Part shown: positions 3,189 through 21,388 of the stretch, piece by piece | Numbering within the stretch: position 1 is the stretch's first letter | Layout: the number at the start of each line of letters is the position of its first letter | Origin: a virus | Direction: 5' to 3' (one strand) | Length of the DNA stretch: 21,614 bases | Virus record (IMG/VR): IMGVR_UViG_3300025759_000822 | Span: 1-21,614 of that record | Program-made: the position numbers and the translations under genes | The notes under the pieces: generated by a model | Database searches by the model: none | The model's input: the letters and a program-made list of their open reading frames with translations, nothing else | What the model was told of the DNA's origin: nothing

Positions 3189-3902
3189 ATGAAAAAATTT
3201 GAGATATTCGAAACTAAAAACTATGGCTTGTTCAAATATCTAACATTTAACAGAGATGTAGATAAAAAGCATGTTGATTTACTTTGTAATTCAATTACTA
3301 AATTTGGCTTAGTTGTACCGATAATTGTAACTAATGATAATTACGTTATTGATGGTCAACACAGGTTAGAAGCGTTAATTCAATTACAAAAACCTGTATT
3401 TTATGTAATAAACAATAACGTAAATAAAGATTGTGTTGTTGATATAAATACTAATCAAAGAGGTTGGAAAGTTATAAACCACATCAAATCTTATGCAGTT
3501 AAAGGTAATCTGGAATATAAAAGATTATTAGAAATAATTGATGATTTTATTGATGATTTTACGCTATCTGGAATTACAGATGCTTTCAATTCAAAATTAA
3601 ACAAAGGTTCTACCTCTTTAATTAAAAAAGGGATTTATGAATTGAATGAGGATTTAGGGGAACAGGTTTTGGAAAATTGCTTAAGTTTAAAAGATGTCAT
3701 AGGAAAAAACGCCATATCTACTAAATTCGTTAGGGCATTAAAAAAGATAATGTTTAAGAATGAACATTTTGATGTTGACAGATTAATCAAGAATTGTAAA
3801 AGCGTTAAAAAGATTTATATTTATAATAATGAATATGATATTATACAAGAGATATTAGACGTTTATAATTACAAACTTAGAAGTAATAAATTAGAAATTT
3901 AA
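3189..3902 (+). CDS. ParB/sulfiredoxin-fold domain protein, 237 aa
   Basis: Residues 8-70 look like a ParB-like N-terminal domain: LCNSITKFGLVVPIIVTNDN followed by YVIDGQHRLEAL, with the DGQHR motif at residues 55-59. In this fold that motif binds nucleotide or phosphate. The C-terminal two thirds (about 75-237) are helical and basic (KSVKKIYIYNNEYDII near the end), with no clear helix-turn-helix. In plasmids ParB acts with ParA, but no ParA is in the window. Stand-alone versions in phages are often annotated as ParB-like nuclease or DNA-binding proteins and their role is usually unknown. It is the largest gene of the P2 operon and could act in DNA modification or regulation, or have nuclease activity. 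The domain call is fairly sure and the function open. Confidence 0.8.
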   Translation: MKKFEIFETKNYGLFKYLTFNRDVDKKHVDLLCNSITKFGLVVPIIVTNDNYVIDGQHRLEALIQLQKPVFYVINNNVNKDCVVDINTNQRGWKVINHIKSYAVKGNLEYKRLLEIIDDFIDDFTLSGITDAFNSKLNKGSTSLIKKGIYELNEDLGEQVLENCLSLKDVIGKNAISTKFVRALKKIMFKNEHFDVDRLIKNCKSVKKIYIYNNEYDIIQEILDVYNYKLRSNKLEI

Positions 3903-4141: not shown

Positions 4142-4660
4142 ATGAGAACAATAGAAATTCAAGCTTATCAATTTGATGAATTAGATAAGCAAACGCAACA
4201 AAAAATTATTAAAAATCATTATGATATAAATGTACACCATGATTGGTGGGATTTAGTTTACGAGGAATTTAAACAAGTAGAGATTATAATAAAAGGTTTT
4301 GATTTATTCAGAAGAGAAATTGAAATTGAAATTTATAGCTCTTATGAGGAAACTGCAAATTTAATTATGTCTTATGGATTTAATACAACAGAACAAATTT
4401 ATATTGCTACAAAGAAGTTTTTAAAACACAGAGATAATCTATTTAAAAAACATGGTGAAAATGATAAAATAAAAGAAGAATTTTATAATGATTATGATAG
4501 TGAAATTGACTCGATTGAACATGATTTTCATTGTAGTTTACAAAATGAAATATTAAGACAATTAAATAATGAATACGATTATTATTCAAGTGATGAGGCA
4601 ATAAAAGAAACTATTATAGTTAATGAATATGAATTTAAAAAAGATGGTGAAAGATTATAA
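4142..4660 (+). CDS. Conserved phage-type hypothetical protein, 172 aa
   Basis: The N-terminal signature YQFDELDKQTQQKIIKNHY followed by DWWDLVYEEFKQ and then IIIKGFDLFRREIEIEI resembles a widespread phage/plasmid hypothetical family (a short F-x-E-L helix, a W/Y-E motif, then beta strands around GFD). I know no established function for it. The rest is acidic and helical, rich in Asp, Glu and Tyr. The gene stands alone between promoter P3 and the terminator at 4734 and is flanked by direct repeats, so it looks like an independently expressed accessory (moron-type) gene. The similarity is from memory of the motif, not from a search. Confidence 0.8.
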   Translation: MRTIEIQAYQFDELDKQTQQKIIKNHYDINVHHDWWDLVYEEFKQVEIIIKGFDLFRREIEIEIYSSYEETANLIMSYGFNTTEQIYIATKKFLKHRDNLFKKHGENDKIKEEFYNDYDSEIDSIEHDFHCSLQNEILRQLNNEYDYYSSDEAIKETIIVNEYEFKKDGERL

Positions 4661-4718
4661 ATTCAATACATGAATTTAATAGAGTAGATTATAAATTCAA
4701 TATACACAAATTTAATAG
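4652..4718 (+). repeat. Partial tandem duplication at the gene end, with second copy of the 22-bp repeat
   Basis: The gene end AGATTATAAATTCAATA (4652-4668, including the stop codon) is repeated at 4686-4702, and both copies continue into AATTTAATAG. The first copy contains a perfect 7-bp inverted repeat, AAATTCA-ataca-TGAATTT (4659-4677), and matches the upstream repeat at 4019-4040 over 21 of 22 bases. The duplication and the remote copy suggest past recombination at this junction. Confidence 0.6.
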
Positions 4719-4762: not shown

Positions 4763-4912
4763 GTTGGATAACTTGCAAAGCTAAAAACAAATAAAGCAAC
4801 AAAGCAAATTAATTTTCTTATTTAGAATTAATATAAATTGTCATGTGGGGTTGACTTGTATTATTTTATTAACTAATATTGTGAATAATTATTAACTAAA
4901 TAAACAAACAAT
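4763..4912 (+). promoter_or_regulatory. Intergenic region with a probable promoter at 4838-4881
   Basis: After the terminator lies about 75 nt of A-rich sequence with nothing clear in it. Then TTG-TCATGTGGGG (4838-4850) resembles the TTTG-TCAGTTGGA box with changes. TTGAC at 4851, 20 nt after its TTG, then TAATATTG (4874-4881) gives an acceptable -33/-7 pair. ATG 4913 follows 31 nt downstream. The -7 matches P1 in lacking one T. The promoter is needed because the upstream terminator is strong, but the exact elements are uncertain. Confidence 0.5.
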
Positions 4913-6577: not shown

Positions 6578-6613
6578 AATATATTAATCTTTTATCGTCT
6601 TTTATTAAAAATT

Positions 6614-6638
6614 AACCTCCTTTTTAGGGGGTTTTTTT
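6614..6638 (+). terminator. Intrinsic terminator, possibly bidirectional
   Basis: AACCTCC (6614-6620) pairs with GGGGGTT (6627-6633, one G-U), loop TTTTTA, with T residues through 6638. On the other strand the same stem is followed by a T-rich stretch (TTAATTTTTAAT), so it may also stop leftward transcripts. It closes the 4913-6577 unit. Confidence 0.75.
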
Positions 6639-6973
6639 ATTCCTTACATTTTGTTAGATTCTTAACATTCAGTTAGTTATGATTAATTAAATAGTCAATA
6701 TCTATAATTCTTTATCTTAATCAGCTATAAACATAGCCATATTAAGCAATTTAAGCACCTTTTTAGCTAGTTTCACACCCTTTCTGGTATGTACCCCTCA
6801 TTTTAATTTAATAAGCCCTTAAAACGCCTCTAATTTAATATTTAGTTTTATGTAGGTTATAGATAAGGGGTACTCTGCCTGTTTGCAAACGCTCTGTGTA
6901 TATTACCCCACTCTCTCTACACTTCATACTTTCCATCTGACACTTGTATATCCTTTATGAATTCAATACCTTT
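6639..6973. other. 335-nt non-coding region with reversed strand composition
   Basis: No convincing gene on either strand. The + strand is pyrimidine-rich here (for example CCCCACTCTCTCTACACTTC near 6907-6926), opposite to the purine-rich + strand of every gene around it. It holds an 8-bp inverted repeat, GTACCCCT (6791-6798) and AGGGGTAC (6866-6873), spaced by 67 nt, and a 10-bp palindrome GTTTGCAAAC (6881-6890). A CCTTTATGAAT motif occurs twice, at 6952 and 6970, the second at the likely start of the next gene. It could be a leader RNA, an antisense transcript or part of an origin. Confidence 0.5.
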
Positions 6974-7222
6974 ATGAATCTAATGGGTAGAAAGAAACTT
7001 GTTCGATATGACAAAAACTATTTAAAGGCAATATCTTATTGCATAGACAACAACATTAAGATATATGCTGTGCCAAAGACACAACGTGAGTATTATGTTG
7101 AGGTAAATGACAATGGTCAAATAATACGTTCACCTGAGGCATATAATCTAAATGAATGGAGTGATAAAATAGTTGAACTATATACATTCTACTACTACAA
7201 ACATAACCCAACCGCCAAATAG
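6974..7222 (+). CDS. Hypothetical protein, 82 aa
   Basis: Not recognised. A basic start (MNLMGRKKLVRYDKNYLK) leads into a helix and beta strands (YCIDNNIKIYAVPKTQREYY; VEVNDNGQIIRSPEAYNLNEW). ATG 6974 is chosen; ATG 6983 (MGRKK) is an alternative, and the frame opens from a TTG at 6944 with poorer context. It is the only gene in the control region, with non-coding DNA before it and a repeat array 26 nt after it. A DNA-binding protein acting on that array would be reasonable, but no helix-turn-helix is clear. Confidence 0.68.
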   Translation: MNLMGRKKLVRYDKNYLKAISYCIDNNIKIYAVPKTQREYYVEVNDNGQIIRSPEAYNLNEWSDKIVELYTFYYYKHNPTAK

Positions 7223-7248
7223 TCAGATTATATATATTATATATATAT

Positions 7249-7335
7249 ACATAGTGTATTATATTACATAATGTATTATATTGCATAGTGTAATATATTA
7301 CACAGTGTATTACATAGTGTAATACATAGTATGTA
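7249..7335 (+). repeat. Tandem array of three 17-bp and three 12-bp units
   Basis: Three 17-bp units follow one another at 7249, 7266 and 7283: ACATAGTGTATTATATT, ACATAATGTATTATATT, GCATAGTGTAATATATT. Three 12-bp units follow at 7300, 7312 and 7324: ACACAGTGTATT, ACATAGTGTAAT, ACATAGTATGTA. The short units lack the last 5 bases. The core ACAyAGTGT is a near-palindrome (perfect in unit 4: ACAC-A-GTGT). There are no unique spacers, so this is not CRISPR. Iterons of an origin or a multi-site operator are the best readings. Confidence 0.8.
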
Positions 7336-7360
7336 ACATATACATATATAATACATATAT

Positions 7361-7401
7361 AACTGACATATATTCAGTTGGAATATAGTAAAGTACAAAA
7401 T
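7361..7401 (+). promoter_or_regulatory. Promoter P4 (late?) with phage box TCAGTTGGA and inverted repeat
   Basis: TCAGTTGGA at 7374-7382 is the fourth exact copy of the phage box. Here the upstream TTTG is ATAT, and the -7 position (12 nt after the box) is TACAAAAT, so the sigma-consensus parts are weak. Unlike P1-P3, the box is half of an inverted repeat AACTGA-catatat-TCAGTT (7361-7379). It sits 43 nt before the first structural gene and may need an activator. Confidence 0.55.
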
Positions 7402-7424
7402 CAAATAAAATTATTAATTATAAT

Positions 7425-8141
7425 ATGGCACTAAAACAAATCGAACTAGAAGTACCAACAACTCTATCTGACATTAAACTTTGGCAATATCAAAAGTATA
7501 TGAAAGTCATAGAGCAGAACAAAACAGAAGATGCCGAAGATGAAGAACAAATAAACGATTTCTTAAATATGAAACTCGTAGAAATATTCTGTAATGTTTC
7601 ATTAAGAGATGTTAGTAGAATACCTTTAAAGGAATATAAAAAAGTATTAGAAATATTAAATAAGGCATTTGAAGAAAAACCTAAATTAATACAGAGATTT
7701 GATTTGTTAGATGTAGATATGGGATTTATACCAAAGCTTGATGATATAACGCTTGGTGAATATGTAGACATAGAAACTAATATTGCTGATTGGCAAAAAA
7801 TGCACAAAGCTATGGCTGTATTGTATAGACCAGTTAATTTTAATGCACAAGATAAATACACTATTGCTCCTTATAAAGTAAATGAAGAGATACAAGAATT
7901 AATGAAAGAAATGCCTTTAGATGTAGCAATTAGTTCAATGGTTTTTTTTTACGCTTTAGGGAAGGAGTTGCTGGGAGCTATACCGAAATATTTGGAGCAA
8001 AATCTGAAGAAAGAGGATATGCTACAGCTAGAGATGCATTTGCACAAAAATGGGGGTGGTATCAATCAATTTATGCACTTGCTAAAGGAGATGTCAGAAA
8101 CTTCAATACAGTTACCGAGCTTCCACTCTACCAGTGTTTAA
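7425..8141 (+). CDS. Tail assembly chaperone-like protein, short (0-frame) product, 238 aa
   Basis: The first 175 residues fit a family seen in Bacteroidota siphoviruses: LSDIKLWQYQKYMKVI, then MGFIPKLDDITLGEYVDIE (about residues 100-118), then WQKMHKAMAVLYRP (about 125-138), and MPLDVAISSMVFFYALGKEL near 164-183. Tail chaperones bind the tape measure and tube subunits during assembly and often come in two forms made by frameshifting. The gene starts at ATG 7425 after promoter P4 and opens the structural cluster. In the 0 frame it stops at 8141, leaving a 67-nt gap before the next gene; a -1 frame runs from the T9 run to that gene. The chaperone role is inferred from family look and the frameshift arrangement. 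Unusually, five genes separate it from the tape measure gene. Confidence 0.7.
   Translation: MALKQIELEVPTTLSDIKLWQYQKYMKVIEQNKTEDAEDEEQINDFLNMKLVEIFCNVSLRDVSRIPLKEYKKVLEILNKAFEEKPKLIQRFDLLDVDMGFIPKLDDITLGEYVDIETNIADWQKMHKAMAVLYRPVNFNAQDKYTIAPYKVNEEIQELMKEMPLDVAISSMVFFYALGKELLGAIPKYLEQNLKKEDMLQLEMHLHKNGGGINQFMHLLKEMSETSIQLPSFHSTSV
7942..7950 (+). other. T9 slippery run, probable -1 frameshift site
   Basis: Nine T residues follow GTT TTT TTT in the 0 frame, giving the slippery heptamer T TTT TTT. The -1 frame is closed by TAG at 7931-7933 just before the run and open from there to TGA 8212. A slip here would therefore give a long product. A sequencing indel in the homopolymer would look the same. 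Confidence 0.6.
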
Positions 8142-8212
8142 ATTATTTGGCATTTGAAAAAGAAAAAGTAGATATAGAACAACAAGAATTAAAAAAAGCA
8201 TATAGACAATGA
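7949..8212 (+). CDS. -1 frame extension of the tail chaperone-like gene (long product about 262 aa)
   Basis: In the -1 frame this segment encodes about 87 residues including FAQKWGWYQSIYALAKGDV and then LPLYQCLNYLAFEKEKVD, a pattern I associate with the C-terminus of related phage chaperones or their fusions. Third codon positions are AT-rich as in the rest of the genome, whereas the 0 frame across the same bases uses many G-ending codons. The TGA (8210-8212) overlaps the next start codon at 8209 in an ATGA, the coupling used repeatedly here. It would be translated as 7425-7949 joined to 7949-8212. A true frameshift and a homopolymer sequencing error cannot be told apart from this sequence alone. 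Confidence 0.68.
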   Translation, partial: LRFREGVAGSYTEIFGAKSEERGYATARDAFAQKWGWYQSIYALAKGDVRNFNTVTELPLYQCLNYLAFEKEKVDIEQQELKKAYRQ

Positions 8213-13027: not shown

Positions 13028-14840
13028 AAAAATACTTATTCAAGTTGACGTAACAACTAAATCAGCAGAAGTACAGATTAATAAAGTTGTTGATTCTATG
13101 AAAAGACTTGAAGGAGCTACAGTAAAACAATCTGTAGCAACTAAAAAGTTAAAAACTGACACTGGATTAAATAATGCTATACTTTTAGAAACAGGTCGTT
13201 TAGCTTCAGATGCTTCTTATGGGTTTGGTGCTATTGCAAACAACTTAGGTCAATTAATAACGTTATTTCAATCTTCTGCAAAAGCTTCAGGCGGTGTTAC
13301 AAAAGCTCTTGGTAGGTTATTTCGTATACAAAGTTTATTTATAATTGGTATACAATTATTAATATCTTTTATGCCGAAAATAATTAAAAGATTTCAAGAT
13401 AAAGCAAAAGCAGCTAGAGCCGTTAAAGATGCTTTGATAGAAGGAACACAAGCTGTACAAGGTCAAGTTAAAGCACTGGAAAGTTATCAAGAAATGTTAA
13501 ATTCCAACAACCTAAGTTTAACAGAAAAACAAAAACTATTAGACAAGGTTGCTAAAGAACAAAAGCTAGATAACTTAGAATTAGATGAAAACAATAACTT
13601 ATCTGAAGAATCAAACAAACTTATAAAAGATAAAATAAGGTTATTGGTTTTAGAATCTCAAGCCAACACTATTAAAAGTCAAATACAAGAAGAGCTAACT
13701 AAAAGAGCTAAAGCTTTAGCACAAGTAGAGGAAGATGTAAACTCACAAATATCTAAAGGAACTGATTTTGTTGACAGAAACACAAAAGGTTTACAAAATA
13801 ATGTTAAAGTTGGTGTTTCAGCAGTTAAAACTATAGTAAACAATACTAACGCTTTTGCTGGGTTAAAGAAAGCTATTGGATTAGTGTCAGCTCCTTTTAA
13901 AGCATATAATGATGATGTAAATAGTGCAGAAGCTATACAGTCAAGAAGAAATAAGGCAGATGCAGAATCTAATAAAATTACAAAAGAAAGTGAAAATAGG
14001 CTAAATGTGCTTATAGAAAAGTTTAAATCCTTAACCACAGAAATGCTTTCTCTCACTGACGCTAATGAACAATTAAAAGAAAGTCAAATAGATGAAGGAT
14101 TGTTTGAAAGAATTGAAAGGGATAATATTAAATTACAAAATATTACTGCAAAGTATAACGCAAAAAGTATTGAAGATGATTTTGCTAGAAAAGATGCAGA
14201 ATTAAAAGCAGAAGAACAATATCAAATTGACGCTATAAATTCTACAGAAGCTTATGAAACAGAAAAAGAATCAGCTAGATTAGCTGTTCAAATATATTAT
14301 GCTAAACAAAGACAGGATAACAGAGAAAAAGAAGAGGATGCTATAAAAGCGTCACAATTATCAATAATCAGTATTTATGCTAAAGCTATTGGTACTATGG
14401 GCAAATTGTTTAAACAAGGAAGCGATGCTTCAAAAGCTGCTGCTTTAACTGAAATAGCAATAAACACTGCTGTTGGATATGTGCAAGGTTTAGATATTGC
14501 ACAAAAATCAGCTAAAGGAACTGGGGCTTTAGCCGCTTTTTCTTTTCCTGTTTTTTATGCACAACAAGTTCTTGCTGTATTAGGTGCGGCTGCTCAAGCT
14601 AAACAAATATTATCTAGCGGTGGAAAAAGCACACCCTCAAGCTCTATTTCTGGAACAAGCACACCAACAACAATAGAAGCTCCTGACTTTAATGTAGTCG
14701 GTGCTGGGGGTGTAAGTCAATTAGCAACCACATTAGCAGGTGTAACAGGGCAACCATTAAAAGCATTTGTTGTTAGTAAAGAAATATCATCAGCTCAAGA
14801 ATTAGAAAGAAATATTACAACTACAGCATCAATAGGTTAA
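13017..14840 (+). CDS. Tail tape measure protein, 607 aa
   Basis: The tape measure sets tail length and is ejected with the DNA. The features fit: long charged helical coiled-coil stretches (about residues 125-460, e.g. ALESYQEMLNSNNLSLTEKQ), one strong hydrophobic helix near residues 103-119 (RIQSLFIIGIQLLISFMPKI), and a second hydrophobic region near 477-530 with TEIAINTAVGYVQGLDIAQK and VFYAQQVLAVLGAAAQAK. The Gly/Ser/Thr-rich tail after it is also typical. At about 1.5 angstrom per residue, 607 residues would give a tail around 90 nm (family rule, not measured). No peptidase or lysozyme motif seen. It overlaps the 48-aa gene by 11 nt. Confidence 0.8.
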   Translation: MASKKILIQVDVTTKSAEVQINKVVDSMKRLEGATVKQSVATKKLKTDTGLNNAILLETGRLASDASYGFGAIANNLGQLITLFQSSAKASGGVTKALGRLFRIQSLFIIGIQLLISFMPKIIKRFQDKAKAARAVKDALIEGTQAVQGQVKALESYQEMLNSNNLSLTEKQKLLDKVAKEQKLDNLELDENNNLSEESNKLIKDKIRLLVLESQANTIKSQIQEELTKRAKALAQVEEDVNSQISKGTDFVDRNTKGLQNNVKVGVSAVKTIVNNTNAFAGLKKAIGLVSAPFKAYNDDVNSAEAIQSRRNKADAESNKITKESENRLNVLIEKFKSLTTEMLSLTDANEQLKESQIDEGLFERIERDNIKLQNITAKYNAKSIEDDFARKDAELKAEEQYQIDAINSTEAYETEKESARLAVQIYYAKQRQDNREKEEDAIKASQLSIISIYAKAIGTMGKLFKQGSDASKAAALTEIAINTAVGYVQGLDIAQKSAKGTGALAAFSFPVFYAQQVLAVLGAAAQAKQILSSGGKSTPSSSISGTSTPTTIEAPDFNVVGAGGVSQLATTLAGVTGQPLKAFVVSKEISSAQELERNITTTASIG

Positions 14841-20885: not shown

Positions 20886-21388
20886 TGGCAACAGCACTAT
20901 TTATAAAAAGGTCAGATTTAGTTAAAAATACTGCATTAAATTCAAATGTAGATACAGATAAATTTATACAGTTTATTAGTTTGGCACAAGAGATTCATGT
21001 ACAAAATTATTTAGGCACAGATTTATATGATAAAATAAGTGCTGATATAATAGCAGGAACATTAACTGGAGATTACTTGTCTTTAGTTAATGACTATATA
21101 CAACCAATGCTTATACATTTTGCTATGGTAGAATACTTGCCATTTGCAGCTTATTCTATATCAAATGGTGGTGTATATAAGCACAATGCTGAAAATAGTC
21201 AAATAGCAAATAAAGAGGAAGTAGATTTCTTAATTCAAAAGGAGAGAGATTTTGCTGAGTATTATGCTCAAAGATTTATAGATTATATGACTTATAATGC
21301 ACCGTCTAAATTTGACGAGTATTATAGTAATTCAAATCAAGACATTTATCCAGATAAAGATACAGGGTTTCACGGATGGGTATTATAA
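20885..21388 (+). CDS. Head-tail connector/adaptor-like protein (possibly DUF6712), 167 aa
   Basis: Alpha-helical: FIKRSDLVKNTALNSNVDTD (residues 6-25), KFIQFISLAQEIHVQNYLGT (26-45), LYDKISADIIAGTLTGDYLS (47-66), a YIQPMLIHFAMVEYLPFAAY helix (about 71-90), and KHNAENSQIANKEEVDFLIQ. The layout of I-x(n)-AQE-IHVQNYLG-DLY and LPFAAY is one I associate with a Bacteroidota phage neck family, placed right after the portal. It probably joins portal to tail. The DUF number is from memory and not checked. Overlaps the portal stop as TAATG. Confidence 0.74.
   Translation: MATALFIKRSDLVKNTALNSNVDTDKFIQFISLAQEIHVQNYLGTDLYDKISADIIAGTLTGDYLSLVNDYIQPMLIHFAMVEYLPFAAYSISNGGVYKHNAENSQIANKEEVDFLIQKERDFAEYYAQRFIDYMTYNAPSKFDEYYSNSNQDIYPDKDTGFHGWVL

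Follow-up and report, generated by a model that had tools for sequence, protein, structure and literature searches.

Palindromic site clusters before the structural genes and beside an initiator-like gene change in step in uncultured marine phages

RESULTS

Gene organization around the repeat array

The window analysed here is the whole stretch of 21,614 bp of the IMG/VR virus record IMGVR_UViG_3300025759_000822, which is AT-rich and carries nearly all of its genes on the + strand. The terminase large subunit gene lies at the left end, followed by a block of small genes and, from 7425 onwards, by the structural genes. Its nearest cultured relatives by protein comparison are the Nonlabens phages P12024S/L (about 31% identity), and the phage is of an uncultured marine Bacteroidetes type. 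Comparison of the array region with phage records at the DNA level, and of the tail gene with genome contigs, gave no match.

The upstream small-gene block ends at an intrinsic terminator-like hairpin with a T run (6614–6633, + strand); three terminator-like sites were found against 0.2 expected. A small gene encoding 79 amino acids (6983–7222, + strand), which belongs to phrog_5945 and is of unknown function, directly precedes the array in all clades. It is followed by a 202-bp gap (7223–7424) that contains the array, and by a tail-region gene (7425–8141, + strand), the first structural gene and a relative of P12024S/L proteins. The structural and lysis genes downstream of the array extend over about 20 kb on one strand. 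An earlier note had called the array-bearing gap the only large non-coding stretch of this region, which does not hold, as a larger gap of about 400 bp (6578–6982) lies just upstream, before the small gene.

Two further features of this region were observed. A TTTTTTTTT run occurs near 7943 in the tail-region gene, and an overlapping frame stays open to 8212 (7930–8212). The gene probably undergoes a frameshift at this run into the frame ending at 8212, and the frameshift would likely be a programmed one as in tail assembly chaperones. In addition, a GAATTCAATA/GAATCTAAT pair with a distance of 17 bp lies just before the small gene (6959–6985, + strand). This GAATTYAATA element occurs in pairs about 13–17 bp apart at 4659–4717 and 6959–6985 of the window, and also in early-region gaps of the relative G003. 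These pairs are a second repeat element separate from the array, and possibly serve as operators for another phage regulator.

Structure of the array

The array (array 1, 7249–7335, no strand assigned) consists of six head-to-tail dyad sites in units of 17, 17, 17, 12, 12 and 12 bp. Direct reading of the sequence gave 3 × 17 + 3 × 12 = 87 bp, which fills this interval exactly, so that the layout described in the earlier note was correct to the base. The 17-bp units start at 7249 (ACATAGTGTATTATATT), 7266 (ACATAATGTATTATATT) and 7283 (GCATAGTGTAATATATT), and the 12-bp units at 7300 (ACACAGTGTATT), 7312 (ACATAGTGTAAT) and 7324 (ACATAGTATGTA); their cores are centered at 7253, 7270, 7287, 7304, 7316 and 7328, respectively. 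TRF reported a 17-mer array at 7242–7312 (score 105) and a 12-mer array at 7296–7330 (score 56). At one offset, 41 of 48 columns matched each other; dinucleotide shuffling of the 202-bp gap (500 shuffles) never gave more than 34, and shuffling of the whole window (40 shuffles) never more than 31.

Regarding the core that all units had been said to share, the six units are indeed related, but the exact core ACATAGTGT is present only in units 1 and 5; the other four are off by one base, and the degenerate unit 6 has lost its dyad. Most of the cores are dyads of the form TACA-Y-N-R-TGTA, which read the same on both strands. The full site, as found in a second cluster described below, is a near-perfect 17-bp palindrome, TAATACATAGTGTATTA, and thus the 17-bp period is about equal to the palindrome length. 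When a mononucleotide background was used, the motif search settled on TATA sequence, and it was replaced.

To the left of the array lies an AT-only, TA-rich stretch (7229–7249, no strand assigned), a possible unwinding element that is not the only region of such AT-richness. The GC content of the array 1 gap is about 17%, and that of both cluster gaps 15–17%, against 30.5% for the genome (relative G003), but other gaps are similarly AT-rich. A DnaA-box origin was rejected, as no DnaA box (TTATNCACA) was found at array 1, the nearest ones in the window being at 4888 and 11063. The cumulative GC skew, which had been proposed as a check, was uninformative for an origin: with practically every gene in the same orientation, it rises almost monotonically.

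Conservation of the array in relatives

By using the gene after the array as a query, 80 viral contigs were obtained. Where these contigs reach far enough upstream, a repeat cluster again separates the small gene from the tail gene, with an irregular arrangement in clade D. The number of sites ranges from 2 to 8 and their spacing is mostly 15–18 bp with a mode of 17 bp: clade A2 has 16 bp throughout, several relatives have 17 bp without any 12, and 12-bp steps appear only now and then. The 17-to-12 grading is common to the closest relatives (L004, L006, L007, L009 and L017). It is one allele and not a design, and the 12-bp units look as if slippage had removed 5 bp between TATAT and TACAT. The idea of a protein reading the core at 1.5 and then at 1.1 helical turns is unsupported, since relatives vary in spacing. 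A pattern scan of IMG/VR detected the array only in the same gene neighbourhood, apart from three hits (L126, L131 and L137) that turned out to be unrelated repeats. The terminase gene of P12024S/L is immediately followed by the tail gene, and neither such a gap nor an array is present there.

Contig ends were also recorded around this gap. Among the 80 contigs (loci L003–L082), 23 end 5–944 bp upstream of the tail gene, whereas only 2 of the 80 end as close to it downstream. A physical genome end at array 1 was rejected, and no cos site is claimed, because the ends are spread and share no base. They may reflect a genome end, a packaging start or an assembly break at a hypervariable gap.

A second cluster beside an initiator-like gene

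The window is an incomplete contig that stops short of the region encoding an HTH_36 protein and a primase-helicase; in complete relatives, the HTH_36 gene lies about 12 kb away from array 1. When relatives with complete or nearly complete genomes were scanned for tandem repeats, a second cluster of the same dyad emerged (cluster 2). In G003 (33,971 bp, circular), the exact sequence TACAYNRTGTA occurs seven times, four times in array 1 (542, 559, 593 and 605) and three times in cluster 2 (22312, 22339 and 22356), and nowhere outside both clusters in the whole genome; dinucleotide shuffles of G003 gave a mean of 0.3 and a maximum of 2 exact dyads. In G003, the HTH_36 and primase-helicase genes are separated by a gap of 86 bp that holds cluster 2, 12.2 kb from array 1, and the distance between the clusters is 11.5–12.7 kb across relatives. 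The two-cluster pattern was also observed in G001, and in clade C each cluster of G007 and G008 holds four sites, with one or two strays elsewhere in these genomes.

Cluster 2 occupies the HTH_36/primase-helicase gap in G001, G003, G007, G008, G010 and dozens of further contigs, directly after the HTH_36 gene in all clades. It usually has fewer sites than array 1, and one of its sites is inverted in clade B. The gene that follows it is Toprim primase-helicase-like, the helicase part being judged from sequence. Also encoded in the genome are an annealing protein of the ERF type (PF04404, E = 4e-35) and a protein of the PDDEXK type (DUF3799, E = 1e-14); a helicase-loader gene was not identified.

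Co-variation of the two clusters

The spelling of the sites differs among clades: ACATAGTGT in A and A2, ACATAAAGT/ACATAGAGT in B, TACAATGTA/TACATTGTA in C, TACATGTTA in D1, ATACATTTTAAGAT in D2 and TACACTTAGTGTA in E. In degenerate form, the clade spellings include ACATARAGT and, for clade C, TACAWTGTA. Both clusters of one genome are spelled alike. Matched pairs of clusters had many non-trivial 8- and 9-mers in common, whereas clusters from mismatched clades shared few or none. When six clades were represented by one genome each, none of the other permutations among the 720 scored as well as the true pairing, whether 8-mers or 9-mers were counted, with D2 adding little to the score. The half-sites TACA/TGTA are mostly fixed, and the central spacing is 0, 1, 3 or 5 bp depending on the lineage, in step at both clusters.

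Because the two clusters change their spelling in step, one sequence-specific protein very probably reads both of them. Whole genomes are expected to share ancestry, but ancestry alone would not make two non-homologous gaps 12 kb apart change alike, whereas a common reader would. The proposal of iterons or a cooperative operator was thus right in kind, given the palindromic dyads and a second, co-varying cluster beside an initiator-like gene.

Candidate proteins for site recognition

Presence in all clades was taken as the criterion for the reader. Three proteins are present in all clades: the HTH_36 protein, a sigma-factor-like protein and the small phrog_5945 protein. The HTH_36 protein is a winged-helix protein of 101 residues (Pfam HTH_36, E = 2.8e-10). 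Its family matched phrog_428 ('replication initiation protein'), phrog_270 and the DnaD-like phrog_186 in 7 of 7 members, and matches to the O-like families phrog_391 and phrog_678 were obtained for seven and five members, respectively. It comprises the DNA-binding domain only; a helicase-recruiting part as in lambda O or SPP1 gp38 was not seen in it. We consider the HTH_36 protein the most likely reader of both clusters because of its initiator-type DNA-binding domain and its position beside cluster 2. The HTH_36 matches in G011 (20908–21186) and G030 (14233–14511) were reported to run over one TAA, which is probably just the regular stop codon of the gene.

The sigma-factor-like protein (24381–24947 in G003; 49–78% identity among clades) matched phrog_1740 in 6 of 6 cases and is a candidate for late transcription. 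Its predicted structure was too poor for use (pLDDT 53).

Other DNA-binding proteins were rejected as readers. A ParB-like protein (window 3189–3902) has no relative in G001, G003, G005, G007, G008 and G010, and a ParB/parS-type centromere was likewise discarded, as this partner is not found in all carriers of the sites. Its gene is missing even from close relatives and is perhaps a recent gain. A protein with a weak match to the helix-turn-helix DnaA domain IV (Pfam E = 0.019) is encoded in clade A by a gene that precedes the terminase genes (27078–27548 in G003); it had no match in G005, G007 and G010. A very weak relative was noted in G008.

A conserved promoter-like element downstream of array 1

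The earlier note had also placed a structural promoter directly after the array. A consensus sigma-70 scan gave nothing above chance, but a conserved promoter-like element, TGACATATATTCAGTTGG-N10-AAGTACA (7364–7400, + strand), is indeed present between array 1 and the structural genes. When 26 representatives were aligned, drawn from clades A, A2, B, C and D, the element TGMCATA-N3/4-CAGKTG...AGTACA appeared before the tail gene in clades A to D, its right end being weaker in clade C. In clades A, A2, B and C, it starts 33–60 bp past the last site and 51–61 bp before the start of the tail gene.

The element has CAGTTGGAA in common with sigma-A-type promoters of the same phage. The window promoters at 1160, 1530 and 4093 have CAGTTGGA in common, along with a −33 TTTG and a −7 TAnnTTTG or a sequence near it, the latter being the Bacteroidetes sigma-A −7 consensus (PMC9723704). 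A conserved spacer, GTCAGTTGGA, was observed between their −33 and −7 boxes, and the same CAGTTGG is shifted by 5 bp towards the −7 box in clades C and D. The element after array 1 has neither the −33 TTTG nor the −7 TAnnTTTG box, and for this reason it is probably a late promoter that would need another factor.

DISCUSSION

Comparison with known replication systems

In phage SPP1, the initiator binds direct repeats at oriL, within its own gene, and at oriR, in a non-coding gap of the late region between transcription signals; the two origins are 12–13 kb apart and both are AT-rich (PMC6316719, PMC3485210). In SPP1, oriL serves as the start of replication, which is believed to halt at oriR with its bound initiator and thereby to turn into concatemer synthesis (PMC6316719, PMC3485210). 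The present phages resemble SPP1 and its initiator gp38 (G38P) in having the same repeats in two distant clusters, with none elsewhere in G003 and a few strays in clade C, in the association of one cluster with an initiator gene, here that of the HTH_36 protein, in the location of the other in a late-region non-coding gap, here downstream of the terminator-like hairpin and the small phrog_5945 gene, and in the distance between the clusters and the presence of recombination genes for concatemer formation. On the other hand, cluster 2 comes after the initiator gene and not inside it, the putative initiator is a lone winged-helix domain, a primase-helicase gene comes next with no loader identified, the sites are palindromic, and the late cluster lies just upstream of a promoter-like element.

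The origin iterons of lambda and Stx phages are 19-bp imperfect inverted repeats beside an AT-rich stretch (PMC7466680). The O protein of these phages is an initiator with a winged-helix DNA-binding domain, a domain also present in the HTH_36 protein with its matches to O-like PHROGs, and in both cases inverted-repeat sites lie near an AT-rich stretch. Lambda, however, has only one cluster, which is located within its O gene. A lambda-type single origin in the initiator gene was rejected for the present phages, which have two clusters 12 kb apart, both in gaps and neither within the gene. Phage P4 has one initiator, alpha, a primase-helicase-initiator fusion, and the same short repeats at ori and crr, both of which are needed for replication. 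Service of two separate repeat regions by one initiator would be a common feature with P4, whose sites are short and not palindromic, unlike those found here. In iteron plasmids such as mini-F, a distant iteron cluster (incC) is bound by the same initiator for copy control, possibly by handcuffing; the likeness to the phage genome studied here would lie in the distant second iteron cluster and not in copy control.

Possible roles of array 1

On balance, we favour the reading that array 1 is the second iteron cluster of an SPP1-like two-site replication system, most likely read by the HTH_36 protein, as judged from sequence and from analogy with SPP1. Array 1 would then be a set of palindromic sites for one phage DNA-binding protein. 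This protein would initiate replication at the cluster next to the gene that encodes it, and array 1 would act as a second origin or roadblock at which replication of the circle would turn into recombination-driven concatemer synthesis. The ERF and PDDEXK genes fit recombination-dependent replication. Binding at array 1 may serve an origin, a fork block or a late-promoter switch, and array 1 may possibly also gate the promoter-like element just downstream. The larger number of sites usually present at array 1 than at cluster 2 counts against the favoured reading, as do the restriction of the HTH_36 protein to a DNA-binding domain, the failure to identify a loader gene, the similar AT-richness of other gaps and the irregular array of clade D. 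An operator explains this number and the promoter-like element better than an origin would, and service of array 1 to the late promoter, alone or in both roles, is nearly as likely as the SPP1-like reading. For array 1 to be purely an operator, by which the HTH_36 protein would repress or activate a single late promoter and cluster 2 would be the only origin, is a possibility that we hold tentatively. Late transcription would then follow replication or the level of initiator. The position of the array 33–60 bp upstream of a conserved element, before the long run of structural and lysis genes, speaks for such an operator, as do the lack of sigma-A boxes in this element, which probably needs help, and the absence of any visible TAnnTTTG promoter between cluster 2 and the primase-helicase gene; however, the distance to the element is variable without a clear helical phase, the number of sites varies from 2 to 8, and the conserved sigma-like factor could serve the late promoter alone. 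Somewhat more doubtful is the proposal that one small initiator-like protein might recognise the same sites both where replication begins and at the sole late promoter, and would thereby gate late expression directly.

It is unlikely that the phrog_5945 protein or another protein reads both clusters with the HTH_36 protein as a bystander. The phrog_5945 gene is located immediately before array 1 in all clades, and its product was predicted by AlphaFold2 to adopt an alpha-beta-beta-beta-alpha fold (pLDDT 85) with weak likeness to nucleic-acid-binding dsRBD folds in a PDB fold search (best E = 0.04, TM about 0.45). However, it has no recognised DNA-binding domain, cluster 2 adjoins the HTH_36 gene instead, and its relatives in Flavobacterium columnare phages lie in packed gene clusters with no adjacent gap for an array. 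That the dyads act as hairpins in RNA transcribed by read-through of the small gene is very improbable: the gap folds at −50.6 kcal/mol compared with −36.1 kcal/mol for shuffles (z = −4.0), but any cluster of DNA palindromes folds likewise, the clade C site TACAWTGTA leaves no room for a loop with a full stem, and the inverted site in clade B cluster 2 indicates that orientation does not matter. We give even less credence to a neutral or decaying tandem repeat with no function. The unit number and spacing vary and 5-bp slippage can yield 12-bp units, as such a repeat would allow, but array 1 is kept in place across clades, it is palindromic, and independent neutral repeats would not co-vary with a cluster 12 kb away.

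Implications for phage biology

The analysis describes a putative two-cluster initiator-site system with clade-specific, co-evolving palindromes in an uncultured marine phage group. The paired clusters constitute a natural co-evolution experiment, in which six lineages have different sites and homologous reader candidates, and this set allows residue-by-residue mapping of specificity. It also suggests a way of finding phage origins from sequence only, through repeats that co-vary with a second cluster beside an initiator gene. Neither the gap nor the array is present at this position in the closest cultured relatives, P12024S/L. In this widespread group of uncultured marine Bacteroidetes-type phages, the two clusters point to a testable control of replication and late expression that may tie genome copying to late growth.
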